Origin: Limonium bicolor
Lineage: Eukaryota; Streptophyta; Magnoliopsida; Caryophyllales; Plumbaginaceae
Direction: 5' to 3'
Length of the DNA stretch: 64,000 nt
Assembly: GCA_023374045.1 (NCBI GenBank)
Contig: CM041783.1
Location: 95,949,298 to 96,013,297, forward strand
The translations under genes and the position numbers were made by a program. The notes beneath the pieces were generated by a model, which was not told the DNA's origin, made no database searches, and saw nothing but the letters and a program-made list of their open reading frames with translations. This document shows, one piece after another, positions 2,700 through 45,527 of the stretch; the stretch's first letter is position 1, and every line of letters begins with the position of its first letter.

Positions 2700-3088
2700 T
2701 ATTCCTCAATGTACTATCTCACACCATGTATCCCAAGGCTAATTATGGTTTAATACTCTTAAACTCATGGTACCCTAATTTGGGTTCTCCACCAACTATC
2801 AATGTGTTTCCTGACTTTAAAACAATCTTACTTGCCCTTTTTCATCCTCTTCGAACCACCGTATATAAACTCAGCCTCATCTCCTATGGAGAATGATACA
2901 GCTGGTATCCCAATCCTTAACCATATACATCATAAATAATTTAAGTTTTGGTCCACTTCCATATCCTGGAATATAAGGTCCTTCAAGGCCTATCCCTAAG
3001 TTCTACATTCATTTATATTAGTTATTTGTTCATTTATAGTTAAGTATTTCTTGAGTAGGATCCTGCCGGGTCAAGGTACTTGGCATTA
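2700..3088 (-). pseudogene. AlkB (2OG-Fe(II) dioxygenase) relic of element A
   Basis: The minus-strand translation, read through stops and frame changes, aligns with the AlkB domains of B and D. There is a counterpart of CQVIRPGMILL (here interrupted by TGA), then ECRT-GIGLEG, KLKLFMM and VKDWD, and, after a deletion, IPAVSFSIGDEAEFIYG and a degenerate KSGNTLIVGGEPK-GYH. The deletion removes the segment that carries the HxD iron ligands in the other copies, and the C-terminal RPGRLNLTFR motif is not found. It cannot encode an active enzyme. Its divergence from B and D shows that the capture predates the split of these families. The position, just 3' of the gag zinc knuckles, is the same in all three elements. 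Confidence 0.75.
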
Positions 3089-3419
3089 TGCCTCTGGATA
3101 TTCCCAACCTTCGCTCATAAGCTCAGGTGACCTTGGTCTCATAGGTAAGGAAACAAACGTCGAAGTATCTTATTAGGTGAGAGGTAACCTAAATTAGGTC
3201 TCTCTAAATTTTTTGATACTTACTAATCACATATAAGTCTCATTGACTAATAACTATAAACACACATTTATGCATCATGCATTTAGTTTAGGTTCTAGGC
3301 TTACCGGTTTCGCGCTGAGCGCTAGCCTCAGCGCCTGAAGTTCCCACTGTGTACTAGGTGTTTCTTCCTGGAATTATCTCCTTTCCCTTCTGGCTCCCGG
3401 ATGAGGATGGCTGTCCTCC

Positions 3420-6914: not shown

Positions 6915-6919
6915 TATTT

Positions 6920-14865: not shown

Positions 14866-15600
14866 CTAATATTGTCTAAAGGTTAGGTTTAATCTTCCTG
14901 GTCTCATATGCGTCGCATTGATTACTGCTGACGGTGCTGTATTCAGCTTGACTCTTTTAATCCCATGGTATAACATCCTTGATTCTCCTCCCAAAATTAA
15001 TACATCACCTGACTTAAGTATTATCTTATCTGCACGGTCCGCACGCTTCTGCTCGCCGTATAAAAACTCCGCATCATCTCCAATGGACCAAGACACTACG
15101 GGTATCCCTCTTCGAGAGACTCCGTTGTCTCGTTTATCCTGGTGTAGTCCCAGTTTCCCATCTTTTTCATAGAAGTTTACAATGCAAATGTCTGGCTGGA
15201 TGTCTGGAATCGGTTCAGCTTCCAACTGCTGAGCGATTTCCACGACTTGTGTAATAACTGGATGGAACTCTTCGGGTATCCCGGTGGTGAGACTCCATCT
15301 TGCTCCCTCGTGGTTTGGTAATTCTTGGCATACGGATTCCAATCCTTGCCCAAGCTCATCATCTTTAATTTCATCCTTGCTCCCCCTGGGTACTCCGGTG
15401 TGTAAAAACCTCCCGGTCCCATTCCTAGTTGATGCATCTCCTGATGATGGCTACTTGTGCGTCGGGTGTCAGGTATCCCCTTAATAAAATCATACCTGGG
15501 CGGATAACCTGACATTGTTCGGTTGGAAAGTGCATGGTTTCGATGTCGGTGTGCTCCGGGTTAGATGTAGATGGTATAGGGTAGCAGATGTTGAATCTTC
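14866..15600 (-). pseudogene. AlkB/ALKBH1-like dioxygenase exon of element B
   Basis: The exon is predicted to start at 15600, after the acceptor CACTTTAG, in frame with gag via a phase-1 junction. It begins with NICYPIP, then CQVIRPGMILLRGYLTPDAQ (15515 region), GMGPGGFYTPEYPGG, RMKLKMMSLGKDWNPY, PDICIVNFYEKDGKLGLHQD, PVVSWSIGDDAEFLYGEQKR, KSGDVLILGGESRMLYHGI and RPGRLNLTFRQY, then stop. Iron ligands are H and D of LHQDKRD and H of YHGI; the two arginines of RLNLTFR match the 2-oxoglutarate-binding arginines of AlkB. The order and spacing follow plant ALKBH1D-type proteins. A one-base loss near 15430, after RRCI, breaks the frame between the N-terminal strand and the core; the core from 15342 is open. 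AlkB enzymes oxidatively remove methyl groups from nucleic-acid bases; the substrate here is unknown. Confidence 0.88.
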
Positions 15601-17270: not shown

Positions 17271-17275
17271 CTTTT

Positions 17276-20200: not shown

Positions 20201-21349
20201 CTAAGGAACAAACCCTAGGTTTAAAAATATGTTTTAAGGTATTAATGTGATTGTTTTACCTTGGTTTCTCAAGACAACTTGGATGTGAAGCAAGAAAGGA
20301 CCTCCTCTCTCCTTTGAAGAGTAGAAACAAGCTAGAAAAGGCATAAACATGGGTCCCATGAGTATATATTTTCGGTGGTCAAGTGAAGAAAATGGTGGAA
20401 ACTAGATTTTCTTACACTTTCTTACCTTAAGAGAATGGAGATGCCAATGGAGTCTCCAAACTTGAATTTCCTCCTCTAATGGTGTTTGACTTGGCACCAA
20501 AATGAAGCTCTTGAAGTTTTGAAAGATAGAGGAGGAGCTTGAGCTAACTAAGGAATATGTATTTGTTTTGGATTTGGAGCTTAAATGAGCAAGTGGTGTG
20601 CAAGAGAAGGTGGAGCTTTCATGGAGGTGAGCTCTACGTGAATGGAGAAGAGAAAGAGAGCAAGAAATCGTGGCAACAAGGGAAATGAAGAAGTGAGGAG
20701 AGAGGTAAGCAAAGTAATATTTATCTAAAAGGTGAATAGTGTTTATGATTTATAACTTACTTATTTGCTTTCATTACTTAAGATAAGTGTGGTGAGTCAC
20801 ACCTTAAGAAACGGCCCCCCTTTAGTAATGAGGGTAGTTTAGTCTTTGTTGACCAATGTCCTCACTTATATAGACTTATGTTAAAACTAGCTAATAAATT
20901 CACTATTCATCAAAACAAGGCACATTGTTGTGAAATTTTTGATTTCCCATTGATATAGACCTCCAAATGTGATCTATATAGTACACATATTAATTAAAGA
21001 GTAATGATGGACATTTAGCATTCAAAACTCATTTACAAGACAATTTTTCAAAAACGTGCTTTAAGACTCCTTAAAGCACATTTTGTGTTTTAACTTGTTT
21101 TCAAGCTTGGTTTTCTTTGGTAATTGACTTAAAATGACCATTAGGATATTACTAAGGTCTTGGAACGATATTTGGGTACTCTCCCATGTCTCTCCAAGCT
21201 TAGAGCGCGTTTTTGCTTAAACTGCTCTTTTGGTGTTTCCTTATATTTTCTTTGATTAGAAATGTTTCTTAATGTTTCTAAGGCATTATTTAGCCTTCTT
21301 ATATCTTAGTTTGTCATTTAAACACCATATCTAAGTTTGGGGTATTTCA
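17276..21349 (-). repeat. Element B 5' LTR (4074 bp)
   Basis: Borders TGTAACACCCC and GGGGTATTTCA, followed by the TATTT target duplication. It is about 80 bases shorter than the 3' LTR, through many scattered 1-4 base deletions rather than one large gap. The palindromic array is at 18740-19075. By analogy with other plant LTRs the promoter should lie in the right half; no TATA box could be fixed with confidence. Confidence 0.95.
18740..19075. repeat. Palindromic array in B 5' LTR
   Basis: Same five units as 8410-8745, with small deletions such as 'tatgtcggtc' for 'tatgtccggtc' near 18840. The arms stay recognisable in every unit. Confidence 0.9.
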
Positions 21350-21354
21350 TATTT

Positions 21355-25203: not shown

Positions 25204-25208
25204 TCTTT

Positions 25209-28200
25209 TGTAACACCCTAACCGCTAATCCTATGCTTACCGTCCAATCATCCCATAATCCAGAGTTACTCGCAGCGGAAATACTACTTACTACGGCGGG
25301 TGATACAACCCCGCTAACCGCCCATACGGCTAGCTAGGCTTACCTTACTTACAGTCATGGTCTGATGATCATAGTATACCAAGCTACTATATTACTTACC
25401 AAATTACCACATACCAAATACTTACATCAATGGATCACCGAGTATTAAAGTATATTCGATTACATCATTTCTAAGTTCCAAAAGAGTGAGTTTCTACCAG
25501 CTACTCATCTATACCAATTCCCATTCTATCAAAATCCAAAAAGGTGTACCCCATGGTACACCGGCTAATCAAAAAGGCTCTAGCCGTGTACTACTTAGTA
25601 CACCATTCACAATTCACCAATTACAATCCAAAAGAAATCAAAAGAAACGAGCTCTAACACTTCCCGGCCTTCATCCTTCTCTTGTACCTGCGTGTAGTAA
25701 AAAGGGTGCCCCAAGGGGCTCAGCAAACGCTGCGTATAAACTCCGCATATACCGCGTGCTAGCTAGGGCACGCCAACTATTTGACGTCCACTAAACATGC
25801 GATTCATTATTTACATACATACATGCTTTACATACATCATACAATCATGCTCAATACATTACACATTCCAACGTAACAATACAATTGCACGCATCTTACT
25901 TACTTTCACAAGGTTAGCCAAATTATGCATCCGGGTTAATCGGAATGCTTTTACTCTTTTACTCATTACTTACTTTTTCTTACTTACACTTACTTACTCA
26001 TTCTTACTTACTTACTCATACTCAAGTTAAGTCGTCGGGACCTCCGGCCCTGGGGACTACGCCGTCCTACCTCCGGGATTTACTTGACTCACCAATCCGG
26101 GATGCTACCCACTTAAGGGATTTGGGCCGCGGACCAGTTTAAGAGTCAGGAATTGGAGCCAACCTCTCGTGACTCCGCATCCTCACGCGTGGCCAAAACT
26201 ATATCGGACTTCTACTCATTCCAATTTAATTACCAATTTAAGTTAGATTGGTTAGCTTGATAGGAATAAGTTAGAAGTCCATTCACACAAATAATCGGTC
26301 ACAATGCAATACATCATACATACACACATTCATTATCATCCATACATTTCATGAATTATACAAACTAAATTTAAAGACAACATACAACACTACATATTCA
26401 CAAGTAAACATGATAACTCCGATTCGTGCATTTATCTTATTTGGTGATCAATTAGCACACAACACACAAATCAGAGTAACCAAGATAGCATACGGGGCAT
26501 GAGGAATCCATACCGTTCACCGTTGTTCGTGTTTCCAAACGTCCTTCGGTGTCACAAATCAAATCCTATGATATACATACATTTGAATGATTAATCTAAC
26601 TATCATTAACTTAACTCATACTTACTATGTCCTTATACTTCTTACTCCCACACATTACTTACTTATTTTTCATTACCTTAAGTTTTATTTTCTTACTTAA
26701 GATTGGCATGCTTACATACATGTACATATATATATGTGGGTATACATATATATATATATATATAATTATTATTTAATTTAAATAAATTTTTTTTTTTGAC
26801 TGGACCGAACTTGCAAGTCCGGTCGCAAGTCCGGTCCATTCCAGTAGCTCACATTACCGAATTTTCCTGGGCCGACCAAACTTGCAAGTCCGGTCGCAAG
26901 TTCGGTCCATTCCAGAAGTTCACATTACGGAAATTTTTTTCTGGCCGACCGAACTTGCAAGTCCGGTCGCGAGTTCGGTCTATTCCAGAAGGTTTCATCG
27001 GGAAATTTTTCTGGCTCGACCGAACTTGCAAGTCCGGTCACAAGTTCGGTCGATTCCAGTAGGTTACAGACAGGAGAATTTTCTGGTCCGACCGAACTTG
27101 CAAGTCCGGTCGCAAGTTCGGTCCATTCCAGAAGCATTCCCGTCTTTATAAATCTGGGCTCGACCGAACTTGCAAGTCCGGCCGCAAGTTCGGTCTGGCC
27201 CAGTATTTGCATTTTTATTTCTGTTTTCAGTCCTCTCTTTTACCCATTACTTCCCCATTGTTCCTACACTTAATCCCACATGTTTTAACACTTATTAACC
27301 CTCCTAATACACCTTAATTCATTCATTAAATCTCTATTCATTTCTATACTAATTCACTCACATAATTTTCCAAGTTTCCCTCAACACTTACACTAGTTTC
27401 TTCTCTAGTTGCATTTTGCTACAGATTTTAACATTTACACTCCTCTTCTACATCTCCCTCTTCTATTGAGATTTCTAACACTCCTAATGCCTTAAAACTA
27501 CATTAACTATCTCCCCTAATATACCCTCTATCTTTCTCTAACAAAATATGTTACAACCTATGCCACTCACCTAGTTTTTAATCTCTTAAGTCCACTAGTT
27601 TCTAAGTAAATTTTGCCATAGTCTCCCCCATATTTTTATACTATCACCTCATTATTTTCATCCATATTTACATTATCTCACCTGTTTTCAACAACCAAAA
27701 ATATACAAGCTCCCATATACAATACCAATACTAAAACACTCATAGAAATTCCTGCACTCAACATTAATTCCCAACTATGTTTGTGACAGTTTTTAATTTT
27801 TTACAAAGGTTTAACACACTTGTTTCCTCCTACACATTTCACTACCAATACACTACCATTTAACAATACCAATTTTCACTTCTAAAAATCTGTTACATTA
27901 TACATTACTAACTACACAAGAGAATGTGATTTACCTTGTTGTTTTACTAGCTTCTCCTTTCTTCTTCCTTCTTCTTTCTTCCTCTCTTTCTCCACCGGTT
28001 ATAGTACTTCATAAATCTTCCAAAGGTGCAAGTGCTGTTTGGGATAGCTCAAGAACAAGACTTCTCACTCTCCAAAGAAGCCAAAATCGGCTTAGAAGAA
28101 CAAGGAGAATGAGGGCCTTCTAATGGTGGTCTTGAAGCTCCAAATGGGACATACCCATAAAAACAAAAGTTGTTGTTTTCGAATTTTGGAAAGGTAGAAG

Positions 28201-28906
28201 TGTAGCTCTTGATGAGGGGATTCCAATGGTGTAGTTTTTATAATTTTTGGAGCAAGTTTGATGGAGTTTCAAGAGGAGAGAAGATGATATTTTTGTGGAG
28301 CTCTTCAATTCTCCATGGAAATCGCATGGAAGAAGAAAGGAAGAAAAAGAGAGAGTGAGGGTGGGGGATTTACGTGAGAGAGGGAGATAGAGATAGGAGA
28401 GAGAGTGTGAGAGTGTGGGGTAATAAAGTAGTGAGTGTTTACTTTATTAGTTTTGTAGTTTTGTAAATAAGGGAGTGAGTGTGTGAGGGAGTGTGAGTGA
28501 GGGGTCCAAATCGGACATACACACAGCACACACATACATTTTACTTTTTATTTTAAAGGTGGACACATAAGTTTGTGTTATTTATGTTTATACCCCACAA
28601 CTTCCCGTTTTTGACAGTTTTTACTAATTTCTCGTTTTCTTGATTTTATTGGTTCTAAAACTTCACTAATATTTATTAATGATTATTTAGTTGACCAAAA
28701 TTGTTACTAGTCTATTTGACCCGCTTAAAGACACGTTTTTCCCGGTTACCTCGAAAAACGTGCTTTAAGGTTCGGTAATGTTTTTAAACCGTTTTAAAGA
28801 TCCGTTTTCTTTGGGATTTGTTCCCTCATGATTATTTATACTTAATTAAGCTTCTAAATTACTTATTAGCCTAATTAATCACTATTTTTAATTACGGGGT
28901 ATTTCA
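25209..28906 (-). repeat. Element D 3' LTR (3698 bp)
   Basis: Borders TGTAACACCCTAACC and ATTACGGGGTATTTCA. It holds the CGCAGCGGAAA module (25271), a stem at 25313-25334, a 'ttacttac' run near 25960-26030, an 'atatat' run at 26730-26765 and the palindromic array 26800-27205. It is closely similar to the 5' copy. Reading frames such as 28120-28535 are LTR sequence repeated at 44730-45151. Confidence 0.95.
26800..27205. repeat. Palindromic array in D 3' LTR
   Basis: Six units about 72 bases apart. The main unit has a perfect 12-bp stem GACCGAACTTGC/GCAAGTTCGGTC around the loop AAGTCCGGTC, followed by 'attccag'. The copy in the 5' LTR is at 39534-39935. Confidence 0.9.
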
Positions 28907-29408: not shown

Positions 29409-31846
29409 TGTAACGACCCCAAAACCACCCTAGGAGTTAGGGACGTTACACGCCGCGTATCTATTACCTAATAACGCAAGGCTCTAACATACGAAACCCA
29501 AAGCTGAAACAAAGTACACCTTTATTAACTGAGAACAGATTACATGGTCTATCTGACATTACATACAGAAGTCAAACTACATTACATAACGTAATCAAAT
29601 TACAAAGGGCCTTAAGCCACAACTGCAATTACAAAGTGAAAGACGAAGCAGAAAGCAGAGCGGAGTCTTCAAAGGAAACTTAAACCTGCAAATCAGACGG
29701 AAATGGGGGTGAGCCAAACTATAGCTCAGCAGGTGATAAACTTCATCAGCTGAGCATGCTCAAAACATATACTGAACATAATCGTACTAATACATAAGCT
29801 TAGCAAAACAGACTGGAAGCGTAACAGAAATCAGATAGAGAATGAAGCTTTCTCAAATCAGAGGAGTGACAGGTCAGAACCGAAACAGAAGTTGGTCAAA
29901 TCAGAGTAGAGAAGCAGAAACTGAGTAAACTGAACAGAAGTCTTAAACCAGAGCAAAGCAAATCACAAACTCAAAAGTTCATAACAGAAGCTCAATCAAA
30001 AAGAGGTGGGACACTAGACACCAGCTGACACATCAGAAGGACTCATATAACGTCCTATGGATCCGAAGATCCCACAACAGAAGCCGTAGAGACAGCTATG
30101 GACCCGTCGGTCACTAAACATCCAAGGGACCCTGAGTGATATAACAGAAGGGAACCCAAGGAAAAACAGAAGGAATTCCTGCGCAGCATGCTACGGGACA
30201 GCCAGACCCGACTATCCAAGGCTCAGAAGCTAAACATCTAGGTCCCAAAACAGAAGCTTTACAAAACGAAGAAGAAGCCTTTAACAGAACAGAGGGCCAA
30301 AGCACATCACACGGATCATAAACCTTTATCAAAACAAAAGTCATATACTGACTATAAATCACAGATAGCAAACAGAAGCGTAGAAGCTCGAACACTCTTT
30401 CTGAGCAAATCAGAGTTCAAAGGCTTATCTAAAGAAATTCAAATTAAAGTGCACATACACATGTGCCGAACATAATAGAAGAGAAGTACTCGAGAAGAGA
30501 AATCCAACGCCGCAAACGGCACTCAAAACGGAGCTCAAACGAAGGAGTTATGCCAAAAACAGAGGCATGTCCGAACTTGCGTCCGACCTTGCAAGTTCGG
30601 ACAGATGCCGAGAACAAATACTGCAGAGAAATCACAGTGTCCGAACATCGAAGTTCGGACTGATGTTCGGACGGTTTTTCGGAAAGAGTTACGCGGGACG
30701 TCCGAGCTTTGAAGCTCGGAGATTTCAGAAAAACGGGGTGTCCGAACTTCAAAGTTCGGACTGAAGTTCGGACACACCCCGAATGCGAAAATACAGAAGC
30801 TCAAAACATGCTGTCCGAACTTCAAAGTTCGGACTGAAGTTCGGACAGCACAAAATCAGCAGAACAGAGGCTACGAACAGATCAGAAACATTACCAAAAC
30901 TTCACAAATCTATACCAAAGTATTACCCACACCAAATCAGACATAAACACAGAGAAACCATGGGGTTTCAGCCACTCAAAAACGCAATTACAACGCATTA
31001 AAACTCACGCACAAATCCATGAACAATCCTTATAAAACCCAAATCAGCGGCCCTCAGAATTCACAAAACAGAGGGAAATTTACAGATGTAAATTCACCAT
31101 TGTCAAAGCAATACTTACATACCCAAAATATACGAATCAAAATACTACCCACGGGGTTTTAACACATTAAAACGCAAATCAAAAACACCCAAATCACCAC
31201 AAATCAGAGAGTCAAATAAACATATACGGAAACATTTCTCGAAACCCCCGTGGGTGAACACACACAACCGAATCCATCTACCACCTACCTCACATCCGAC
31301 GCAAAGCCATCTCTGCGGACCCTAACCAACAGACTCCTCGAATCTCCACTTGCAACAACGAACCCTCAGACCGAACAATTCCAGCATTCTAGAGTTAGAA
31401 TCAGAAAAGAAAGAGGGGAAAACTTAATGGAGAATAGAACCGGAACTTACAAACCAAACCTGATAGACGATTGATATACGAACGGAATTCCACAAGCAGA
31501 TCTCTAGCAATCAGTAATTGAGAGGAAATTGAAGAAGAGAAAGAGGAGCAAAGGGAGAAGAACTTGAACGCGTAGAGGATGACCAGAGAACCATCAATGA
31601 GAGAGTGGAGAAATTATTTGATCGTGAATTAGGATGAGAGAGAAGAGGGAAATAAAATAGTTTAATAACCCACTCTCTTAAGAAAATAATAAATAACAAA
31701 AGGAAGAAGACAAATGTAACCTCCTTCCTCAAGCTGACATATTAACATTACAAGAATGTCATAGGCTATTTAATATAAGATTACAAAATAGCTCAAACTC
31801 CCTTTGCGAATCAAAAGAAAATAAAAAAAAAATCTGGGGCATAACA
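29409..31846. repeat. Solo LTR F (2438 bp) inserted in D pol
   Basis: Borders TGTAACGACCCC and GGGGCATAACA, with target duplication TCTTC at 29404-29408 and 31847-31851. No primer site, polypurine tract or coding is inside, so it is a solo LTR left by recombination. It differs in sequence from LTRs A-E but shares the TGTAACG-ACCCC type of border and has its own palindromic array at 30567-30850. Between 29650 and 30400 it is rich in repeated 'cagaag' and 'aacagaa' phrases. Small frames inside (30114-30825) are not genes. Confidence 0.9.
30567..30850. repeat. Palindromic array in solo LTR F
   Basis: About five units built on GTCCGAACTT and AAGTTCGGAC. The best unit, at 30739-30773, has one forward and two inverted arms, as in B and D, but with different arm and linker sequence. 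One unit (30698-30720) has changed both sides together to CCGAGCTT/AAGCTCGG. Confidence 0.85.
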
Positions 31847-31851
31847 TCTTC

Positions 31852-34800
31852 CAACTCCCATGTCGCTTCTTCGACATCATGGTTTGACCATAGGACCTTC
31901 ACCATTCGTATAAACTTATGGCGAGTGTCTCTGGTCTTCCTGTCAAGGATCCTCACGGGGGTTTCAACGTATCTCATTGTCGGCTCAATAGATAGTCTCT
32001 CCGGCTCTAAGACATGAGAAGGATCAGCAATGTACTTCTTGAGTTGTGACACATGAAATACATCATGGACACGTCCCAAGTCCTCAGGTAATGCTAACCT
32101 GTAGGCTACGGATCCAACTCTTTCGGTGATAGCATACGGCCCTACAAACTTTGGGCTCAGCTTGCCCTTCTGGCCAAATCGGAAGACACCCTTCATAGGT
32201 GAAACGCGCAAGAACACTTGGTCGCCCATGGCGAACTCAAGGTCGCGTCGTCTCACGTCCGCATAGGATTTCTGTCTATCTTGGGCTGCCTTCATATTAG
32301 CTCGAATCTGCTGAACTTCAGCTTGTACTTGCTCAAGGTATTCCGGTCCTATGATGACCGCTTCGCTTGACTCATCCCAACACAAGGGTGTACGGCAAGG
32401 TCTACCGTATAGAGCTTGGAAAGGCGACATCTTAATCGAGGCGTGATAGCTATTATTATACGAGAACTTGATAAGATGAAGCTTATCTAACCAACTCCCC
32501 TGAAAGTCCAAGGCACATGCCCGAAGCATGTCCTCCAGTGTCTGGATGGTCCTTTCTGTCTGACCGTCGGTCTGAGGATGGAAGGCGGTACTCAATTTCA
32601 ATTCTGTACCCAGCGCTTCCCGTGTAGCTCTCCAGTATCTCGAAAGAAATCTAGTGTCGCAGTCAGATACTATTGTTTTCGGGACTCCGTGATGTCTGAT
32701 AATCTCCTTGTCGAATAGCTCAGCTAGCTTTACTACCTTCCAGGTGTCCTTCATCGGTATGAATTGGCAACCTTGGTAAGGCGATCGACTACAACCCAGA
32801 TCATGTTGAGTCCTCCCCTGGCAGGTGGGAGTCCTACAACAAAATCCATGGAGATATCATGAAATTTCCACTCCGGAACTGGCATCGATTGTACCAATCC
32901 GCCCGGTCTACGATGTTCAAATTTCACCTTCTGGCATGTTAAGCATCTCAATACAAATTCTGTCACATCTGATTTCATTCCAGACCACCAGAAGTACCTC
33001 TTCATGTCTTTGTACATCTTGGAGGCTCCTGGATGGACTGACAATGTAGAACTGTGTAACTCTCGCAGGATGCGATCCCTTAGCTCAGCATTGCTTCGGG
33101 GGACGCATAGCCTGCCATTCAACCGAATCAAACCATCTTCATGTAGCTTGAAGTCATACTTTTTCTTCTCAAATGTACCATTCTCGATCTTTTGTCTGAT
33201 TTCGGTTAGGTAAGGGTCGCTCAACTGAGCGTCTCGCACCTCGTCAACCAAGCTAAAAGAAGCGAGTAGCGAATGGAGCGAGTGTGCTCGACGGCTCAGG
33301 GCGTCGGCTACAATGTTTGCCTTCCCTTCCTTATACTGCAAGTTGATGTCATAGTCTGAAAGAAATTCCAACCATCTTCTTTGTCTCAGATTCAGTTCTT
33401 TCTGTGTGAATACATACTGTAAGCTCTTATGGTCGGAGTAGATGGTGATGCTTACCCCGTAGAGATAGTGTCGCCATATCTTCAAGGCAAAGACAATGGC
33501 TCCTAACTCTAAGTCATGTGTCGGGTAATTCTCCTCATGCTTTTTCAACTGGCGGGAGGCATAAGCAACAACCTTGCCTTGCTGCATGAGTACGCATCCC
33601 ATTCCTTTACCTGATGCATCACAATATACCTCAAATCCCTATGTGCCCTCTAGAAGAGTAAGGACGGGCGCCGAGGTCAATGAGTCTTTAAGGCTCTGAA
33701 ATGATAACTCGCACTCGTGTGTCCATACAAACGGTGCATCTTTCTTCATTAGTGTAGTCATGGGCTTAGCGACTTTCGAGAAGTCCTTTACAAATCTCCG
33801 GTAGTAACCGGCTAGACCAAGAAAGCTCCTAATGTCGGTAACAGTCTTGGGTCTAGGCCATGATCGTACAGCTTCAATCTTAGAAGGGTCAACTGAGATA
33901 CCTGCGCTCGAGATGACATGACCAAGGAATGATACCTGATCTAGCCAGAATTCGCATTTGGAGAACTTCGCATACAGCTGGTTCTCGCGCAGTGTCTCAA
34001 GCACTTTCCTCAAATGAATTTCATGTTCCTCTGTTGATTTTGAGTATACAAGTATGTCGTCGATGAAGACAACCACTGAAGTGTCCAACTGCTCACTGAA
34101 TAGTCGGTTCATGAGGTCCATGAATTTAGCTGGTGCATTTGACAAACCGAATGGCATCACCGTGAATTCGTAGTGGCCATATCTGGTACGGAATGCCGTT
34201 TTCTCAATGTCTTGCTCTTTGATAGCAATTTGATGATACCCAGAACGGAGGTCAATCTTGGAGAAGACTGATGCTCCTTTCAGCTGATCAAATAGGTCGT
34301 CGATGCGTGGCAATGGGTATTTATTCTTGACTGTGACCGCATTCAGCTCGCGGTAGTCAATGCAAAGTCAGAGAATACCGTCCTTCTTCTTCACGAAGAG
34401 AACCGGTGCTCCCCAGGGTGATACGCTCGGGCGTATAAACCCTTTGTCGAGAAGGTCTCGCAATTGTTCTTTCAGTTCAGTCATTTCAGCAGGTGCCATG
34501 CGGTACGGTGCCCTAGCAATGGGACCGGTACCTGGCAATAGATCAATTTCAAATTCCACTGCTCTCGGGGGTGGCATGCCGGGTAGCTCCTTGGGGAATA
34601 CGTCGGGAAATTCGGATACAATCGGTACATCATCACTAAACTCTGGATCTCTCTCCAGGTCTTGTACATAACACAGATATACTTCTTGGCCCTTTCTGAG
34701 CTCCCGGTACATAGCCATAGCAGATATGAGTGTGGTCAAAGGCTCTCTCGGTCTCTGGCGGTAAGATACTGTAACCCTAGAAGGACTCTTGAGCAGCAAT

Positions 34801-35185
34801 CGATGCTCGGCGCAGAGGATTCTACCCTTGTGCCGCTCCAACCAATTCGTTCCGATGATTAAGTCGAATCCCAATCCATTGAATTCGATGAAGGAAATGG
34901 GAAACGATTCGCCTTTGATTTGGATTGTGGCTGATTGATAATACTTGGTGCACTTTACTCGCTCCTTCGATGGGAGAGTAACCATGAAGTTCGGTAGCTC
35001 ATCCGCATCTAGCTTCAACCTCTGTACAAAGGATGGTGATACGAAAGTGTGAGAGGCGCCGGAGTCGAATAACACATTGGCATCAATGCCGTTCACTGGG
35101 AAGGTTCCCGTTAAGATGGTGCCGCTTCTGCCGGCTTGTGCTTCGGTGAGGATACTCAGATTACCTTCGGTACCGAGTCCACAAC
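31852..35185 (-). pseudogene. Pol of element D: protease, RT, RNase H, integrase, chromodomain
   Basis: The exon is predicted from the acceptor at 35186/35185 (CGLGTEGNLSILTEAQ). Protease has VLFDSGASHTFVS (about 35070). RT has VKKKDG, then a TGA at about 34367, [20 protein letters not shown] and [11 protein letters not shown] (about 34060). A TAG at about 33640 precedes RNase H ([22 protein letters not shown]). Integrase has [32 protein letters not shown], a frame break at 32750-32765, SDCDTRF, and [25 protein letters not shown] follows at about 32120, then a chromodomain with VKVLWSNHDVEEATWELED up to solo LTR F. Motifs are of the Tekay/Del chromovirus lineage. Pol copies element RNA to DNA and integrates it; the chromodomain usually targets chromatin. 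Confidence 0.95.
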
Positions 35186-35307
35186 CTATTGAAGTCACAA
35201 TTGGATAAGTATTGATGGTGGACACAAGTGGAATTAAATCAACACTGCTCTTTATTGATAAACCAACCATCATACATACCGTGTCTCTAATACACGTTAC
35301 TAATAGA

Positions 35308-36065
35308 TTACAAGATACGATGAATTGAATACTTTCTAAAGGTAAGGTTCAGGCGTCCTGGTTTCATGTGTGTGGCATTGATTATTGCCGGCGGTGTCGT
35401 ATTCAACTTGATCTTGTTGATCCCGTGATACAGCATCCTAGAGTTTTCACCCATGATTAGGACATCTCCTGATCTCAATACCAGTTTCTGTGCGAGGTCC
35501 ACACGCTTCTGCTCGCTATACAAAAATACGGCGTCATCACCAATGGACCAAGACACTACGGGCACTCCTTGTTCAAGAGATTCCGCTGTCTCGTCCTTGT
35601 CTTGGTGTAACCCAAGTCGTCCTTCTTTCTCATAGAAGTTTACGATACAGAGGTCCGCTTCGAGTGCGGGGATCGGTTCATGTTCACATCGTTGTGCAAG
35701 TTTTACTGCTTGTGTGACGAGTGTCTGAAACTCTGGAGGTATTGTCGGTGGCGTTGCTCCGTCTTGTGTTCGTGTCTCTTGGTATGTCTTGGTATAAGGA
35801 TTCCAGTCCTATCCCAAGCACATCATCTTCAGCTTCATCTTCTCTCCACCGGGGAATTTGGGTGTATAAAATCCACCTTGACCCGTTCCTAGCTCGTTGC
35901 ATCGTCGGATGATTGAGATTTGCGCTTCGGGTGTCAGGTATCCCCTTAATAAGATCATACCTGGGCGGATGACCTGACACTGTTCATTGGTGTAGTAGTG
36001 GTTAGTGATGTCGATCTCTTCTTGATTCAGGTTTACCGGTATCGGATAACAGATACTAAAGCTTC
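35308..36065 (-). pseudogene. AlkB/ALKBH1-like dioxygenase exon of element D
   Basis: The exon is predicted from 36065 (acceptor CCATAG). It begins SFSICYPIPVNL, then CQVIRPGMILLRGYLTPEAQ, GTGQGGFYTPKFPGG, MKLKMMCLG, then an in-frame TAG at 35809-35811 where B and A have AAG (Lys), then DWNPYTKTYQ, ADLCIVNFYEKEGRLGLHQD, PVVSWSIGDDAVFLYSEQKR, RSGDVLIMGENSRMLYHGI and KPGRLNLTFRKY, with a stop shortly after. The domain is full length (about 230 residues) with all expected iron ligands (LHQDKDE; YHGI) and 2-oxoglutarate arginines. The single TAG is the only lesion, so the source copy was probably intact recently. It is most like plant ALKBH1D-type proteins; flexivirus AlkB domains are a more distant alternative. 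Confidence 0.92.
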
Positions 36066-36220
36066 CTATGGTTACAAATTTCGTCTACGGTGAGTATTAG
36101 TTTCAACTACTTCTTTTCATGCTTAATACACACTTCAATTTATTTACTCATGCATTCACTCGTACAGTTGCTCCAATACTTAGACATACTACTTCAAGGA
36201 TTAAAGGTTTAGATTATTAC
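36066..36220 (-). other. Predicted intron between gag and AlkB in element D
   Basis: Donor CCCAG|GTAATA (phase 1), acceptor ACCATAG|GAAGC, 155 bp. The alternative acceptor CAATAG|GTTGTGG (35186) joins the same donor in frame to protease, skipping AlkB as part of a 1035-bp intron. Both choices are conserved in B. Confidence 0.65.
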
Positions 36221-36565
36221 CTGGGCCAGATTTAGAACCGGACCCATCACGGTCTATGACATGAAGGACAGGCTGCCTCTGAGGTGCACCCCTTGGAGGT
36301 CCCCGGGATCCCAGTCCCTGTGGTGCCTGCTGGGTCGGTGCATCGCCAGATGCAACCTCCTTGCCTTCCCTCTGCCTGTAGCTTTGGTAGTTCCCTTTTG
36401 GCTTCCCACTCTCTGGGCACTTGTTAGCTGTATGTCCTAGCTTCTGGAAATTGTAGCATTTGATCTCTCTCCCATAGCAATCTTTGCCGGGATGGTCCTG
36501 ATTGCACTTTCTGCACACATAGGCGCGGCCATCGGAGAAGGTTTTGGTGACACCGGAGCTAGAAC
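36221..36565 (-). pseudogene. Gag zinc-knuckle exon of element D
   Basis: It reads SSSGVTKTFSDGRAYV, then CRKCNQDHPGKDC and CYNFQKLGHTANKC, then a Gln/Gly/Pro-rich linker and LHVIDRDGSGSKSGP up to the donor. In the second knuckle the second cysteine is Phe (B has Cys), which should impair metal binding. The exon is otherwise open. Confidence 0.8.
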
Positions 36566-36650
36566 CTGAGGTTAGAGGGTTAGCACATGTGTGCGTGGAT
36601 ATACTAGATATGATACTGATAGGAATATGAATTAGAAATAGAAGTTTTAC
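36566..36650 (-). other. Predicted gag intron 2 of element D
   Basis: Donor CTAAGG|GTAAAA, acceptor AACCTCAG|GTTCT, 85 bp, phase 1 at PKG|S; same position and phase as in B (16077-16163). Confidence 0.65.
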
Positions 36651-36930
36651 CCTTAGGTGGGTATGATCTCAGTGGCTTTGCTGCCACCGGCGCAGATGAA
36701 CCGAGTTGAAGAAGTTCAACCGGTTTGCCCTGCTCAGCATGGGCACTGCTTTCACTTGGGAATTTCTTTTGGGATTGCTGAAAGAAATTTCCCTTCTTCT
36801 TTTTCCAGCTTTTACCCTGGTTCTGCTCCTCAGTACTGGTGTTTTTATTGTTGGCTTTGCGCTTCAGCGCGGTCTCTTCATCCCTTAGTTGGCAAGTGAT
36901 TTCAATGCGAGAAGCCGCGTGATAACACTC
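36651..36930 (-). pseudogene. Gag middle exon of element D
   Basis: Continues gag from the acceptor at 36931 with ECYHAASRIEITCQLRDEE, a Lys/Asn/Gln-rich linker and LRSYPPKG. It corresponds to AINAAAKVEITVQLRDEENA of B. Open in the predicted frame. Confidence 0.7.
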
Positions 36931-37051
36931 CTGAAGTTTCAGGTATTAGCCGGGATTCTCATTTAAGAAGGATAAGGAAAGACTCAAAGAATTCAAGGAA
37001 TTTAAGGAATTCAAGGAATTGAAATGATACTAAGGGTTAACCGATATTTAC
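36931..37051 (-). other. Predicted D-specific gag intron 1
   Basis: Donor CTTCAG|GTAAAT, acceptor AAACTTCAG|GAGTG, 121 bp, phase 0. It contains about four tandem 'ttgaattcc'-type repeats. It is absent from B at the same codon, and the hexamer CTTCAG stands at both ends. Confidence 0.6.
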
Positions 37052-37717
37052 CTGAAGGGAGGTAAATCGAGTGTAGCCCATACCGTACCGAAGGCGATGG
37101 CTCAGACCGCCATAGAAGCGATCGACCAACACCTGGCCGGTGTATCCTAGATCAGGGAGAAGACGGAGAATGGAGGTGAAAGTTTTATAGTACTCATCCA
37201 CAGACATCTTGTTTGTCATCTTCAAGGCGTCCAGCTCTAGCCTTTTCTTAGTTTTTACGTGCTCTGGATAGTACTTGGATCGGAGGATAGCAGCAAAGGA
37301 CTCCCAATCAAAGGTGGGGTCGCTGACATACTCGTGCTTGACTAGTTTCCACCAGTCCATAGCGGCATCCTTGAGGTAGTAAGCAGCTACTCTCACTCGA
37401 ACTCCAGCAGGAGCTTCGAGGGTCTCAAAAGCAGTCTCCATTTCGGAGATATAAGCTTCTAATTTGGCAGGATCGCTCTCGCCTCTAAAACATGGAGGAC
37501 GGAGATCTGCGATGGCCTTTACCCAGTTCACTTCCCTGGGTGGCGGGGGAGGGATTGGTCCCGCTTGGTTCTGTTGGTTTTGCTGGTTTTGTTGCATTGC
37601 TTGAATTACCTGTGGTAGCATCTGCGCTACCGTGGCAGCGACGATCTCAGCTATCGTCTGCGTGCCCGGTCCGTCATTGCCCCCTCCTCTGGGGCGACCT
37701 GGACCTCTTCCTGACAT
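37052..37717 (-). CDS. Gag first exon of element D
   Basis: It is open from MSGRGPGRPRGGGNDG (an upstream ATG at 37732 would add MLHIQ). It has IAEIVAATVAQMLPQ, a poly-Asn/Gln run, PIPPPPPREVNWVKAIADLR, PPCFRGESDPAKLEAYISEM, MDWWKLVKHEY, KYYPEHVKTKKRLELDALK, MSVDEYYKTF and FYGGLSHRLRYGMG, ending at SLQ where the predicted intron 1 begins; without splicing, a stop follows after VNIG. This is a typical chromovirus capsid region, and no lesion is seen. It would form particles and package element RNA with the zinc-knuckle exon. Confidence 0.88.
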
Positions 37718-37928
37718 CTGAATATGTAACATTCACATTAGGCTCCGCAAGATATGACTCAAAGGTCTTGGAATTAAAACAAGGTATCGTTCCTAAGAAC
37801 GTCAAGGGTATCCGTTGTTAACAACGGTAGTTCCTAGTTAGGTTTCTAAGTATCCGTCTTAAGACGGTTGAAATCCTAACTCGGTAATCCCCTATGCTCG
37901 GTAACTAAGGACATCAGAGCGTAACTAC

Positions 37929-37945: not shown

Positions 37946-40335
37946 TGTAACACCTCAACCGCTAATCCTATGCTTACCGTCCAATCATCCCATAATCCAG
38001 AGTTACTCGCAGCGGAAATACTACTTACTATGGCGGGTGATACAACGCCGCTAACCGCCCATACGGCTAGCTAGGCTTACCTTACTTACAGTCACGGTCT
38101 GATGATCATAGTATACCGAGCTACTATATTACTTACCAAATTACCACATACCAAATACTTACATCAATGTATCACCGAGTATTAAAGTATATTCGATTAC
38201 ATCATTTCTAAGTTCCAAAAGAGTGAGTTTCTACCAGCTACTCATCTATACCGATTCCCATTCTATCAAAATCCAAAAAGGTGTACCCCATGGTACACCG
38301 GCTAATCAAAAAGGCTCTAGCCGTGTACTACTTAGTACACCATTCACAATTCACCAATTACAATCCAAAAGAAATCAAAAGAAACGAGCTCTAACACTTC
38401 CCGGCCTTCATCCTTCTCTTGTACCTGCGTGTAGTAAAAAGGGTGCCCCAAGGGGCTCAGCAAACGCTGCGTATAAACTCCGCATATACCGCGTGCTAGC
38501 TAGGGCACGCCAACTATTGACGTCCACTAAACATGCGATTCATTTTACATACATACATGCTTTACATACATCATACAATCATGCTCAATACATTACACAT
38601 TCCAAGGTAACAATACAATAGCACACATCTTACTACCTTCACAAGGTTAGCCAAATTATGCATCGGGTTAATCGGAATGCTTTACTCTTTTACTCATTAC
38701 TTACTTTTCTTACTTACACTTACTACTTTCTTACTTTACTTACTCATTCTTACTTACTTACTCATACTCAAGTTAAGTCGTCGGGACCTCCGGCCCTGGG
38801 GACTACGCCGTCCCACCTCGGGATTTACTTGACTCACCAATCCGGGATGCTACCCACTTAAGGGATTTGGGCCGCGGACCAGTTTAAGAGTCAGGAATTG
38901 GAGCCAACCTCTCGTGACTCCGCATCCTCACGCGTGGCCAAAACTATATCGGACTTCTACTCATTCCAATTACCAATTTAAGTTAGATTGGTTAGCTTGA
39001 TAGGAATAAGTTAGAAGTTCTCACACAAATAATCGGTCACAATGCAATACATCATACATACACACATTCATTATCATCCATACATTTCATGAATTATACA
39101 AACTAAATTAAAGACAACATACAACACTACATATTCACAAGTAAACATGATAACTCCGATTCGTGCATTATCTTATTTGGTGATCAATTAGCACACAACA
39201 CACAAATCAGAGTAACCAAGATAGCATACGGGGCATGAGGAATCCATACCGTTCACCGTTGTTCGTGTTCCAAACGTCCTTCGGTGTCACAAATCAAATC
39301 CTATGATATACATACTTTGAATGATTAATCTATCTATCATTAACTTAACTCATACTTACTATGTCCTTATACTTCTTACTCCCACACATTACTTACTTTT
39401 TCATTACCTTAAGTTTTATTTTCTTACTTAAGATTGGCATGCTTACATACATGTACATATATATATGTGGGTATACATATATATATATATAATATATATA
39501 TAATTATATTAATTTAAATAAAAAAAAATTTTTGACTGGACCGAATGCAAGTCGGTCGCAAGTCCGGTCCATTCCAGTAGCTCACATTACCTTTTCCTGG
39601 CCCGACCGAACTTGCAAGTCCGGTCGCAAGTTCGGTCCATTCCAGAAGTTCACATTACGGAAATTTTTTTCTGGCCGACCGAACTTGCAAGTCCGGTCGC
39701 GAGTTCGGTCTATTCCAGAAGGTTTCATCGGGAAATTTTTCTGGCTCGACCGAACTTGCAAGTCCGGTCGCAAGTTCGGTCGATTCCAGTAGGTTACAGA
39801 CGGGAGAATTTTCTGGTCCGACCGAACTTGCAAGTCCGGTCGCAAGTTCGGTCCATTCCAGAAGCATTCCCGTCTTGATAAATCTGGGCTCGACCGAACT
39901 TGCAAGTCCGGTCGCAAGTTCGGTCCGGCCCAGTATTTGCATTTTTATTTCTGTTTTCAGTCCTCTCTTTTACCCATTACTTCCCATTGTTCCTACACTT
40001 AATCCCACATGTTTTAACACTAATTAACCCTCCTAATACACCTTAATTCATTCATTAACTCTATTCATTTCTATACTAATTCACACATAATTTTCCAAGT
40101 TTCCCTCAACACTTACACTAGTTTCTTCTCTAGTTGCATTTTGCTACAGATTTTAACATTTACACTCCTCTTCTACATCTCCCTCTTCTATTGAGATTTC
40201 TAACACCTAATGCCTTACAACTACATTAACTATCTCCCTAATATACCCTCTATCTTCTCTAACAAAATCTATTACAACCTATGCCACTCACCTAGTTTTT
40301 AATCTCTTAAGTCCACTAGTTCTAAGTAAATTTTG
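37946..40335 (-). repeat. Element D 5' LTR, inner segment
   Basis: Matches 25209-27615 of the 3' LTR with scattered small differences; interrupted by solo LTR E after 'aagtaaattttg'. It includes the stem at 38050-38071 and the palindromic array 39534-39935. Confidence 0.95.
39534..39935. repeat. Palindromic array in D 5' LTR
   Basis: Six units matching 26800-27205, the first degraded ('accgaatgcaagtcggtcgc'). The fourth and sixth units have the regular 'gtcgcaag' and 'ggtccggcc' where the 3' copy has 'gtcacaag' and 'ggtctggcc'. Confidence 0.9.
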
Positions 40336-43300
40336 TGTAACCCCCTAATACGCACATGATACTAAATGAAATCGCAGCGGAAATAAAACTAAACAGTAAC
40401 TAACGCTTCGGTGTTACAACGCCGCCAACCACCCACGTGGTTGACAAGGCAGAACAATACATTGTACCGGTCTGATGATCAGACTCCCGAGCAATAAAAC
40501 TAAACCATAATTACATCATATACAATACCGGTTTGTACATATACAACCTTCACTGTTAAACATCACTGTAAACTGTCACAACCAAATCCAACAACGCCAC
40601 GGGAGCACAGGCGCATCCCGGGCCAACATCCCAAAAGTATACAAAAGTAAACCTGCACCCTAGGATCTAAAGCCACTCGCTTCTTCGATCCTCATCCTGC
40701 CGTATAAGAAATATGGATCCCCCGAGGGGGTCAGCAACCCTTGGCTGGTATGGCTAACGCGCAGCCCATCGGCTACGGGATGCGCGCAGCTACTTGTCAT
40801 TATAACATGGTATTCAATTATACATATCATAACATAACATGGAGCATGGCATCAATGGTGCATAGCTCAACAACACACACACAGTGGATTTTCACTCCAC
40901 GATAACAACCACAAGGGTCAAATAACATAAGAGCCTAGAGAGTGATTCACTCTCATGTCAAGCTCGTTAAACACACTCATTACCGTTCTGTTAGACGAAC
41001 GAGTAACTTAAGTCACAGATGGTTCGGATTTAGGACCGAACACACCACACAAACACAGGTTCCCACTAAACCGATCATAAGTCAGAATAGGTAAGCTTTG
41101 GAAGAAGTAGCGGGAGATCGAACGCCAAATTAAGGGGAACAATCTTAACAACATAAGAGTCGAATCTGATTCAGATATCTACTCTTAACTTACATGCATG
41201 ACCGGAACCGGATTCCTCACTTCCCAGTTAACACTTGTTAGAAGTTCATAGTGGAACTTAACAACCAACACACAATAGGTGGTAAGTCATGTTAGACACA
41301 CACAAGGGAATTGAGTCACAACATTACGTCACAATAAAATGAACAACTGTAAACTCATTACATGTTTAAATCTTATAACGTTGTAAACACACAGAAAAAC
41401 ATACAACACACAAACCGGTGTAAACCGCTAGACAACAGACTGCAAGAAAACCATACCTTGGTCCTTGCCTCGACTGATTTCCACCTTGAGAGAACCCTAA
41501 ACACATTAGTAATGTCGGTTAATTATTTATTTAACTCCAAACTTACTAAGTATTTAACATGATTGTATGACATGTTTTAATGCCTATCTTACCCTAGGTT
41601 ACCTTCATTATACACCCTAGGGTTAACTACATAAGTCACATTCTTTTCTGTTTTTTTTTTATAAGTTTTGGTCCGACCGACCCACCGTCCGACCACCACT
41701 GGGTCGGACCCTCCCAGTGGCTTTCGGGTCTGAAAAATCTTACCTTGACGACCCATGTCCGACCCAACCTTCTGGGTCGGTCCATTACAGAAACCCTTTT
41801 ACTTCCTCATAAAACATGCCCGTCCGACCCACGTCCGACTCACTCGACTGGGTCGGACCATGTGCGAACATTTCCCTCCTTTGAAATTTGACCGACCGAC
41901 CCATGTCCGACCCACCCTTTTGGGTCGGACCATTACCGAACACTTCCTTAACATCAAACAGAGGCTCGACCGACCCAAAACTGGGTCGGACCCCTGGGTC
42001 GGTCGCCTTCTAAACTTACCCAAACTTTGCCAATCCTTCACCAAACTCCTCCTAAGGCCTCTTAATGCTTCCTAACAACATTTGGTAACCTTACATCCAC
42101 ATACAACATCCATGAAACTCATTTTCTAACTCCTTAAGCCTTTACTTATTTCCTTGTAACAATTCCTTAACACTTATGTTATTTTATACTAGGTTCCAAG
42201 ATGGTGTTTCTCACCTATGGTGACTACTATCCCAAATGTTTTCTCCTTGCTTAACACCATCTCTCAAGCATTATTTCTCACAACCAACTCCTTATGTCAC
42301 TCTTGAAGTTCTTTTTCCAAGTTCACACTTTCTCCTTATTTACCAAAGTTTGCCTAAGTCTTTACTAAGTCCCAAAATGACTTTGGTACATACTAAGATC
42401 TCAAGCTCATGCCTAAGTCCTTATTACATCCTAAATCACCTTAATGCATGTTTCTTACACAAGAACAACACTTAACCACTTCAAATACCTTAACTTATCA
42501 AACCCATTCTAACACTTAGAACTTCACATTTGTTACCCAAATTTTGACATAGGTTCTCCTAGAACATTACTAACCCAAAACACATTGTTTTACCAACAAA
42601 CAACCAAGAACACTAAAAATCCATCAAGTACTTATTATACACAAACTTCACTTACAAAGCACTACATCACAATATAGTGCACAATTTAAATTGCATGGCA
42701 CTTAGGCCCTTAAATGACATGGCTCTTAGGCCCTTAAAATGCACAAATCATAAACACTGAATTTCCACAATATATTTGCCTTTAACTGCAAATACACTCA
42801 ACAACACATATGCCTTTTACTAAGCTCTTGGAAGCACTTTACTAAGTCATTCACCATTGGCTCTTTAGGTAGTTTAATAAGCATTTATGAGCTCATTTCT
42901 CCTAAGGCATTAAAAACATTAGGTTAGTAGATTTACCTCTTTGCAAAATAACTTCTTTCTTGTTTCCTTTAGAAAACCAATAGAGTACTTGATTCTTTGA
43001 CAAGCTCTAAACAATATACAAACATTGAAATGAGTATTCAAGCTATAAGCTCCATCTCATTGTAAACCCTAGTTTTACATTGTTTCAAAAACATTAATGT
43101 AGTGTTTTACCTTGCTCTTTGAAGAGAGTTTGAATATCTAGCAAGAGAGGACTCCACCTAGTCCATGAAGAGTTGGAATGAAGCTAGAACAAAGTCACAT
43201 AAAAAGCTCCTTCAATACATATTTTCGGACATGACAAAAACAAGGAGGAAAGGAAGTTTTTATTTGAGATTCCTTACCTAGAATCCAAGGAGAGTAACAA

Positions 43301-44223
43301 TATGTAAAAATACAAGCTCAAGCTCCTTCAATGGAGAAACTCCATGGCACCGAAATGGTTGTCTTGAAGTTTGGAGAAGATAGAAATGAAGAGCTTGAGG
43401 AGAGGAAGAAGATGGTGTGTTTGTTTTTGATTTGGACAAGTGAGCAAGGTTTTACAAGAGATCAAAGCTTGTGTTTTAATGGTGGTAGTGGTTCTATCGT
43501 GAGAGAACAAAGAAGAAAGGAAGAAGAGAGGTGGGAAACCGTGTGAGCAAGGAAAGGAAATGATGAGATGAGAATGAGATAGAATTTACTTTATGAAGAT
43601 ATTTATACTTATAAAGTAAAAAGGGTACTTAAGTAGTTTACTTATTTTGTTAACAGCTAACAAAGGTGGTGTGTCACCAACCTTAAAAACCGGCCCCAAA
43701 TAGTAGTAGGAGGGTAATATATTTGTTTGTCAATTTAAATACTTATACAAACATATGTTACAAAATAGTATAAAAGTTACTATTCATAAAACAAGGCACA
43801 TAGAAGTGAAATTTTTGATTTCCCCCTAATATAGACACCCAAATGTGATATTATATAGTACACATATATATTTAAGAGTAATGATGGACATCTAGCCATT
43901 CAAAACTCATTTACAAGACAATTTTTCAAAATGTGCTTTAAGACTCCTTAAAGCACATTTTGTGTTTAAACTTGTTTTCAAGCTTGGTTTTCTTTGGGAA
44001 TTGATTTAATATGTTCATTAGTGTATAAATGAGGTCTTGGTAAGTTCATTAGGTCTTAACCAAGTTTATCCCAAGCTTAGAGCACATTTTGGCTCTTATT
44101 GTCTTTAAAGCACATTTTGTGTTTTCTTTGTTTAAACTTGTTTACTAATGTTCTAAGACTCTTTTTAGTCTTAATACACCATGTTTAAGTGTTAAACAAT
44201 ATATTAAGGTTTGGGGTATTTCA
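40336..44223 (-). repeat. Solo LTR E (3888 bp) in the D 5' LTR
   Basis: Borders TGTAACCCCCTAATAC and GTTTGGGGTATTTCA with target duplication TTTTG (40331-40335, 44224-44228). It has the CGCAGCGGAAA module (40373), a stem at 40424-40445 and the palindromic array 41670-42010. There is no internal region, so it is a solo LTR. It is the same family as 1-2129. The frame at 43331-43546 lies in a part shared among LTR families. Confidence 0.93.
41670..42010. repeat. Palindromic array in LTR E
   Basis: Five units of the form GTCCGACCCA ... GTCCGACCCA ... TGGGTCGGAC, followed by 'cattacagaaac' or similar. Here two forward arms meet one inverted arm in most units, the reverse of B, D and F. Confidence 0.85.
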
Positions 44224-44228
44224 TTTTG

Positions 44229-45522
44229 ACATAGTCTCCCCTATATTTTTATACTATCACCTCATTGTTTTCATCCATATTTACATTATCTCACCTGTTT
44301 TCAACAACCAAAATATACAAGCTCCCATATACAATACCAATACTAAAACACTCATAGAAATTCCTGCACTCAACATTAATTCCCAACTATGTTTGTGACA
44401 GTTTTTAATTTTTTACAAAGGTTTAACACACTTGTTTCCTCCTACACATTTCACTACCAATACACTACCATTTAACAATACCAATTTTCACTTCTAAAAA
44501 TCTGTTACATTATACATTACTAACTACACAAGAGAATGTGATTTACCTTGTTGTTTTACTAGCTTCTCCTTTCTTCTTCCTTCTTCTTTCTTCCTCTCTT
44601 TCTCCACCGGTTATAGTACTTCATAAATCTTCCAAAGGTGCAAGTTGTTTGGGATAGCTCAAGAACAAGACTTCTCACTCTCCAAAGAAGCCAAAATCGG
44701 CTTAGAAGAACAAGGAGAATGAGGGCCTTCTAATGGTGGTCTTGAAGCTCCAAATGGGACATACCCATAAAAACGAAAGTTGTTGTTTTCGAATTTTGGA
44801 AAGGTAGAAGTGTAGCTCTTGATGAGGGGATTCCAATGGTGTAGTTTTTATAATTTTTGGAGCAAGTTTGATGGAGTTTCAAGAGGAGAGAAGATGATAT
44901 TTTTGTGGAGCTCTTCAATTCTCCATGGAAATCGCATGGAAGAAGAAAGGAAGAAAAAGAGAGAGTAAGGGTGGGGGTGGGGGATTTACGTGAGAGAGGG
45001 AGATAGAGATGGGAGAGAGAGTGTGAGAGTGTGGGGTAATAAAGTAGTGAGTGTTTACTTTATTAGTTTTGTAGTTTTGTAAATAAGGGAGTGAGTGTGT
45101 GAGGGAGTGTGAGTGAGGGGTCCAAATCGGACATACACACAGCACACACATACATTTTACTTTTTATTTTAAAGGTGGACACATAAGTTTGTGTTATTTA
45201 TGTTTATACCCCACAACTTCCCGTTTTTGACAGTTTTTACTAATTTCTCGTTTTCTTGATTTTATTGGTTCTAAAACTTCACTAATATTTATTAATGATT
45301 ATTTAGTTGACCAAAATTGTTACGAGTCTATTTGACCCGCTTAAAGACACGTTTTTCCCGGTTACCTCGAAAAACGTGCTTTAAGGTTCAGTAATGTTTT
45401 TAAACCGTTTTAAAGATCCGTTTTCTTCGGGATTTGTTCCCTCATGATTATTTAAACTTAATTAAGCTTCTAAATTACTTATTAGCCTAATTAATCACTA
45501 TTTTTAATTACGGGGTATTTCA
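44229..45522 (-). repeat. Element D 5' LTR, outer segment
   Basis: Matches 27616-28906 almost base for base; ends GGGGTATTTCA followed by the TCTTT target duplication. It would hold the element's upstream promoter part. Confidence 0.95.
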
Positions 45523-45527
45523 TCTTT

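Follow-up and report, generated by a model that had tools for sequence, protein, structure and literature searches.

An AlkB-type dioxygenase of the ALKBH1 class is carried by a Ty3/gypsy long terminal repeat (LTR) retrotransposon—here called element D—in a 64,000-nucleotide stretch of the Limonium bicolor genome (GenBank GCA_023374045.1, contig CM041783.1, positions 95,949,298 to 96,013,297; this whole stretch is the window, and coordinates are counted from its first letter). As read from its splice sites, the AlkB domain is an alternative last exon (35308..36065, minus strand) within a gag intron, either joined to Gag or skipped. Besides Gag-Pro-Pol, a Gag–AlkB fusion is predicted as a product of the element, and the fusion would likely erase methyl marks on the element's own RNA or complementary DNA (cDNA)—a reading to which we give a probability of roughly two in three. 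Features of element D, and of the related elements A and B in the same window, lie on the minus strand.

The original prediction, made from the letters of the window, had proposed an AlkB-type domain on the minus strand at this place, and profile search, fold comparison and genomic alignment bear it out. The 166-amino-acid open frame at 35808-35308 matches Pfam PF13532 (2OG-FeII_Oxy_2) with E 9.1e-36 and 124.3 bits at a cut-off of 31.2, and its best fold match is PDB 5xeg (OsALKBH1, 7.4e-46). By fold and by sequence, ALKBH1 is the nearest AlkB class, and an ALKBH5-type AlkB as in orchids was rejected on both grounds. The 166-residue piece holds the HxD...H and RxxxxxR motifs plus the N and Y of the 2-oxoglutarate site—the roles of these cofactor residues being as given in PMC9289625. 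Among 83 aligned AlkB sequences, H68, D70 and H128 are invariant and R152 and R158 are conserved in at least 90%, all of them within this piece. An AlphaFold model of the domain built on the 83 sequences was good, and one built on seven sequences (predicted local distance difference test score 43.6) was discarded. The exon has one in-frame stop near 35810, which is absent in the 29 other aligned genomic copies; this private stop marks the window copy as broken. A search of viral contigs with the AlkB of element D gave two weak loci, with 29 of the 166 residues matched.

An alternative last exon within a gag intron

The AlkB exon begins at 36065, the upper limit that had originally been assigned to the domain, and this position is a splice acceptor. 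The exon has its own stop, followed by an AATAAA poly(A)-type signal at 35251..35256 (putatively used); element B likewise has AATAAA after its AlkB stop. Upstream lies gag exon 3 (36221..36565) with two zinc knuckles, which ends in phase 1 at the third donor of the element, so that one codon base is left over—in D as well as in B. In both elements, the AlkB acceptor and the protease acceptor each start with the two bases that complete this donor codon. Hence, the shared donor may be joined in frame either to AlkB, by removal of intron 3a (36066..36220), or to the protease, by removal of intron 3 (35186..36220), which has the whole AlkB exon inside. The exact sites recur across 30 aligned copies from the genome: all 30 have the protease acceptor, 29 the AATAAA, 28 the AlkB acceptor and 27 the donor.

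The domain had been placed between gag and protease, and this stands as far as position is concerned, with gag upstream and protease and reverse transcriptase (RT) downstream. As a polyprotein domain between the two, however, AlkB was rejected: stops and frame changes occur on both sides, and it is the splice joins that restore the frame.

Integrated copies carrying the spliced joins

Were these sites in use, reverse transcription of some already spliced element RNA would be expected. Allowing two mismatches, a genome scan found the exact Gag–AlkB join in one copy (L033, 0 mismatches); the exact Gag–protease join was found in nine copies, six of them mismatch-free. Reversed-pattern controls gave 0 in both scans, by which chance matches were rejected. 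In L033, intron 2 (GT-AG, 36566..36650 in element D) and intron 3a are exactly gone, intron 1 (GT-AG, 36931..37051) is kept, and the copy is unspliced beyond AlkB into the protease. Its LTRs are 98.0% alike and its target-site duplication (TSD) reads as ATGAC, with one terminal LTR base changed; LTRs and TSD indicate that L033 integrated as an element. It reads 282 amino acids from gag exon 2 via the two zinc knuckles into AlkB and then meets a stop.

In all nine Gag–protease copies, gag exon 3 exactly adjoins the protease and AlkB is absent. None of the three introns is left in L037, L038 and L044. Introns 2 and 3 are missing from L043 and also from L042, where exon 2 has a gap in addition. 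L037 shares 99.3% identity with L038, and the nine copies are estimated to fall into no fewer than five independent groups. Since several introns are missing together in the same copies, splicing is favored over deletion or an AlkB-less ancestor, and a derivation of the joins from spliced RNA is strongly supported by these sequences.

Intron 1 is also missing in L040 and in element B, where it is exactly absent at 16375-16445—which suggests that a spliced RNA founded the B lineage or that the lineage passed through one. L036, L039, L040 and L041 form one AlkB-less subfamily (93-97% alike), which may have multiplied after the loss of intron 3 and may serve as a natural comparison for an element without AlkB.

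Selection on the AlkB exon

The AlkB enzyme has been preserved by purifying selection between the D and B lineages. A codon comparison of the AlkB exon (239 codons) gives an approximate ratio of nonsynonymous to synonymous rates (dN/dS) of 0.12 (bootstrap 0.07-0.19), next to 0.07 (0.05-0.13) for the protease and pol start and 0.40 (0.25-0.77) for the zinc-knuckle exon. Conservation goes up at the AlkB acceptor: D and B are 47% identical in the intron linker upstream of it, and 58% identical in the stretch after the AlkB stop.

Distribution in the window and the genome

A domain found at this one locus and in no other copy had been named as one outcome that would speak against the original prediction; instead, element B, the degenerate element A and 150 of 150 scored matches in the assembly carry AlkB. 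These 150 are all at least 93% identical and were drawn from 44,995 first-look candidates, a figure that should not be taken as the number of copies. With up to two mismatches, the intron–AlkB exon boundary occurs at 3,229 genome sites (control 0). A single-locus accident was rejected on the second complete element, the 150 matches and the 3,229 boundary sites. In each of 30 fetched loci (D included), AlkB is followed by protease and RT matches, and gag exon 3 lies within 1.5 kb upstream of AlkB in 29 of them; in the exception, L007 (wider view L048), reversed LTR sequence separates gag from the AlkB exon.

In element B, the AlkB exon (14866..15600) sits in the same place as in D and is frameshifted; its AATAAA is at 14791-14796, the shared donor at 15735/15734 and the protease acceptor at 14714/14713. 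An alignment of D with B, running for 4.2 kb from the integrase into the AlkB exon, shows 74.4% identity. Element A (2749..4398) consists of a degenerate gag, whose capsid is 40.7% identical in amino acids to that of D, and, behind its zinc knuckles, an AlkB remnant (3061-2749); no pol was found next to it. The order gag then AlkB is common to elements A, B and D.

Origin of the captured AlkB

In the first protein search, six sequences (58-68% identity to D) outscored every plant-named protein. One of these AlkB relatives, P0001, is listed on the same contig of 26,621 bases as P0234, the only protein with a match to the capsid of D at or below E 1e-20; another such element therefore probably exists elsewhere.

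Two trees were computed. The quick tree used 50 host-type and seven bacterial rows out of 227 further proteins; from the careful tree, P0012, P0014 and P0015 (host-type) were removed together with five bacterial rows because they were long, unusual or superfluous, and P0121 was left out of both owing to an internal duplication. The careful tree separates 47 host-type rows, of which 41 are plant-named, from eight element-type rows with support 99/99, whereby "element-type" is, for P0002-P0006, a presumptive label of the analyst. The element-type rows' own grouping has 66/27 in the careful tree and 81 in the quick tree (Shimodaira–Hasegawa-like approximate likelihood ratio test); a cluster of D, B, P0001 and P0005 receives 99/90 in the careful tree. 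A recent copy of a sampled host ALKBH1 gene was rejected, as the element-type rows do not nest among the sampled host proteins. Judged by these trees, the AlkB capture is old or fast-evolving. The earlier proposal that a chromovirus-like LTR element captured an ALKBH1-type gene agrees with fold, sequence and element context.

Proposed mechanism and alternatives

In the mechanism that we propose, the shared donor would be spliced in frame to AlkB, giving Gag–AlkB, or past AlkB to the protease. The Gag–AlkB mRNA would end at the AATAAA after the AlkB stop, and the unspliced RNA would be the genome from which cDNA is usually copied. How much Gag(-AlkB) is made relative to Pol would be governed by the two spliced forms, by analogy with the shGAG of the copia element EVD. 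The Gag–AlkB protein would enter the virus-like particle via capsid and zinc knuckles, and the latter would bring the enzyme to RNA or cDNA, where it would demethylate adenine—either N6-methyladenine (6mA) on single-stranded cDNA, or N6-methyladenosine (m6A) or N1-methyladenosine (m1A) on packaged RNA. ALKBH1 enzymes favor 6mA in single-stranded or unpaired DNA according to the literature, and this leaning of the class to DNA would point to cDNA, or to R-loops formed at the element, as its substrate. A review describes that ALKBH9B demethylates ONSEN RNA and releases it from stress granules. RNA is held to be about as likely a target as cDNA or R-loops. In its fullest form—alternative splicing puts an ALKBH1-type eraser on the Gag zinc knuckles in each particle, where it strips adenine methyl groups from packaged RNA or nascent single-stranded cDNA, the capture being separate from that in orchids—the mechanism is put forward tentatively, at somewhat below even odds.

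Several points weigh against a Gag-fused eraser. The Gag–AlkB join is found in one genomic copy, and this copy, L033, runs past the AATAAA. No full enzyme is encoded by the AlkB of D (stop), B (frameshifts) or L033 (stop). Among the Gag–protease copies, L037 and L038 probably represent one event, L042 has its exon 2 gap, and L036, L039, L040 and L041 keep intron-like sequence elsewhere and may reflect one event or an AlkB-less ancestral form. Both junction scans are confined to D-like sequence, and the 30 aligned copies are the best-scoring ones rather than a random sample. Synonymous divergence between D and B is close to saturation and some bootstrap replicates are undefined, which makes the dN/dS values approximate. 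Finally, enzymes acting on other substrates share the AlkB fold as well.

AlkB could instead be translated from its own internal start as a small independent protein, on unspliced or differently spliced RNA, with the join to gag an occasional mis-splice without a protein role. This would fit a single Gag–AlkB copy set against 3,229 unspliced boundaries, as well as the AlkB of the orchid element, which is a separate open reading frame (ORF) according to PMC9289625. Nevertheless, the frame between donor and AlkB acceptor is kept in D and B despite about a quarter of sites differing, and conservation rises at the acceptor, with the linker upstream at 47% identity; a separate protein is hence considered unlikely, if the strongest of the alternatives. 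Less probable still is a main role of the exon in switching splicing and polyadenylation toward a short Gag, with enzyme activity secondary. An alternative last exon with AATAAA resembles the layout by which EVD obtains excess Gag, and element B as well as 29 of 30 copies retain the signal, but a dN/dS of 0.12 and conserved catalytic residues are unneeded for a mere switch. That AlkB is a functionless host-gene fragment carried by some copies might be read from its broken state in both complete copies of the window; against this stand its presence in three elements of different age, the 3,229 boundary matches, the dN/dS and the shared 26,621-base contig of P0001 and P0234—the only close gag relative—so that this explanation is hardly credible. 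The Gag–AlkB fusion besides Gag-Pro-Pol remains the preferred reading.

Anatomy of element D and further elements

Element D shows the hallmarks of Ty3/gypsy elements, namely LTRs with a 5-bp TSD, a primer-binding site (PBS) and the order gag, protease, RT, RNase H, integrase. The 3' LTR (5'-TGAAATACCCC...GTTACA-3') spans 25209..28906, flanked by the TSD AAAGA at 25204-25208; the 5' LTR (37946..45522, outer TSD AAAGA at 45523-45527) is split by a nested solo LTR (3.9 kb, 40336-44223, own TSD CAAAA) that belongs to a related family. The LTR boundaries were taken from sequence inspection, and the 3' LTR is 96.3% (2430 columns) and 98.5% (1307 columns) identical to the pieces of the 5' LTR. Directly inside the 5' LTR lies the PBS TGGTATCAGAGC, which we take to be of the initiator-Met tRNA type. 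Gag exon 1 (37052..37732) encodes the capsid (PF03732, PF19259) and is followed by gag exon 2 (36651..36930). Beyond the AlkB exon come the protease exon with the pol start (RVP_2, 34372..35185) and, by Pfam profiles, RT, RNase H, integrase and a weak chromodomain (31759..34367). The chromodomain match (PF00385) after the integrase has E 0.0004 and 20.6 bits, below the cut-off of 25.1; from its domains, the layout of element D is likely chromovirus-like, and Tekay, the clade originally suggested, is a candidate assignment.

Both LTRs of element D contain tandem units of about 72 bp with a strong inner palindrome (GACCGAACTTGCAAGTCCGGTCGCAAGTTCGGTC), six at 26791-27224 and five at 39592-39954. 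Another palindromic unit (TCCGAACTTCAAAGTTCGGACTGAAGTTCGGAC) occurs in three copies at 30629-30847, between integrase and 3' LTR. Element B has a 3' LTR at 6920..11071 and a 5' LTR at 17276..21349, 96.9% alike and flanked by the TSD AAATA at 6915-6919 and 21350-21354; a tRNA scan of 17,000-18,000 found none. A compact element at 50653-55739 has 239-bp LTRs that are 99.6% alike and an RT 58% identical to that of D, and no AlkB match was found in it.

Comparison with known systems

The original prediction did not count AlkB as a standard part of any Ty3/gypsy lineage, and here it needs correction: Alvarado-Marchena et al. 2022 (PMC9289625) describe Gypsy_Pa_2799 of Phalaenopsis with an AlkB ORF, an element of another lineage with another AlkB class. 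The orchid AlkB removes m6A in vitro, and a screen of 121 plant genomes found AlkB-bearing Gypsy elements in no genus besides Phalaenopsis, according to the same paper. Common to both systems are a plant Ty3/gypsy element, a high copy number and a captured AlkB-family dioxygenase with conserved cofactor residues. The Phalaenopsis element belongs to the Tat/Ogre lineage, is 25.5 kb long, and has a tRNA-Arg PBS and a separate ORF2 of the ALKBH5 clade, whereas element D is chromovirus-like, with the PBS TGGTATCAGAGC and an ALKBH1-like predicted enzyme whose coding sequence forms an alternative last exon within an intron of gag. Membership of D in the Phalaenopsis AlkB Gypsy lineage was rejected accordingly, as there is no ALKBH5 clade, no separate ORF2 and, presumably, no tRNA-Arg match of the PBS. 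Because AlkB class, PBS and genetic layout differ, the capture in D was likely separate from that in orchids.

A second, apparently separate Ty3/gypsy capture of AlkB, from another class, would make methyl erasure a recurrent need of plant retrotransposons and not an orchid curiosity. If true, plants would mark the nucleic acid of retroelements by adenine methylation to a degree that has favored erasers on two or more occasions, and the question whether such methylation (m6A in RNA, 6mA in DNA) restrains these elements becomes testable. The alternative-exon layout gives a direct handle for this—the splice choice can be read in RNA and the predicted Gag–AlkB can be searched for in particles. 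Moreover, integrated copies can preserve spliced isoforms, which makes retroelement splicing readable without RNA data.

Regarding expression, the closest likeness is to EVD, a Ty1/copia element of Arabidopsis, in which a spliced, early-terminated mRNA supplies excess Gag, the shGAG (PMC8892269). Splicing and early polyadenylation in gag-pol thus yield, in addition to the full-length mRNA, a short one for Gag, as is predicted for D. While shGAG is Gag alone, the alternative last exon of D encodes a predicted Gag-fused enzyme, and, unlike in EVD, the Gag-Pol of D itself needs splicing. A coding-region intron that is spliced in a subset of transcripts and regulates polyprotein expression is also known from another element; that intron lies after the protease, whereas the intron of D lies between gag and protease and bears the AlkB exon, and the lineage differs.

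AlkB domains in mobile genetic elements, thought to act on the element's own nucleic acid, are also described for plant flexi- and closteroviruses (as cited in PMC9289625). These are RNA viruses, unlike element D. Their AlkB sits inside the replicase polyprotein. The nearest enzymes by sequence and fold are plant ALKBH1 proteins (OsALKBH1, ALKBH1C/D), from which the element-type rows are set apart with 99/99. A literature search, with bioRxiv outside its scope, found no further report of an AlkB in LTR elements, none of one in a chromovirus, and none of an enzyme attached to Gag through an alternative last exon. Hence, AlkB in Ty3/gypsy elements is already known from Phalaenopsis, and what appears new in Limonium bicolor is its ALKBH1-like, chromovirus-like form with a predicted alternative last exon.
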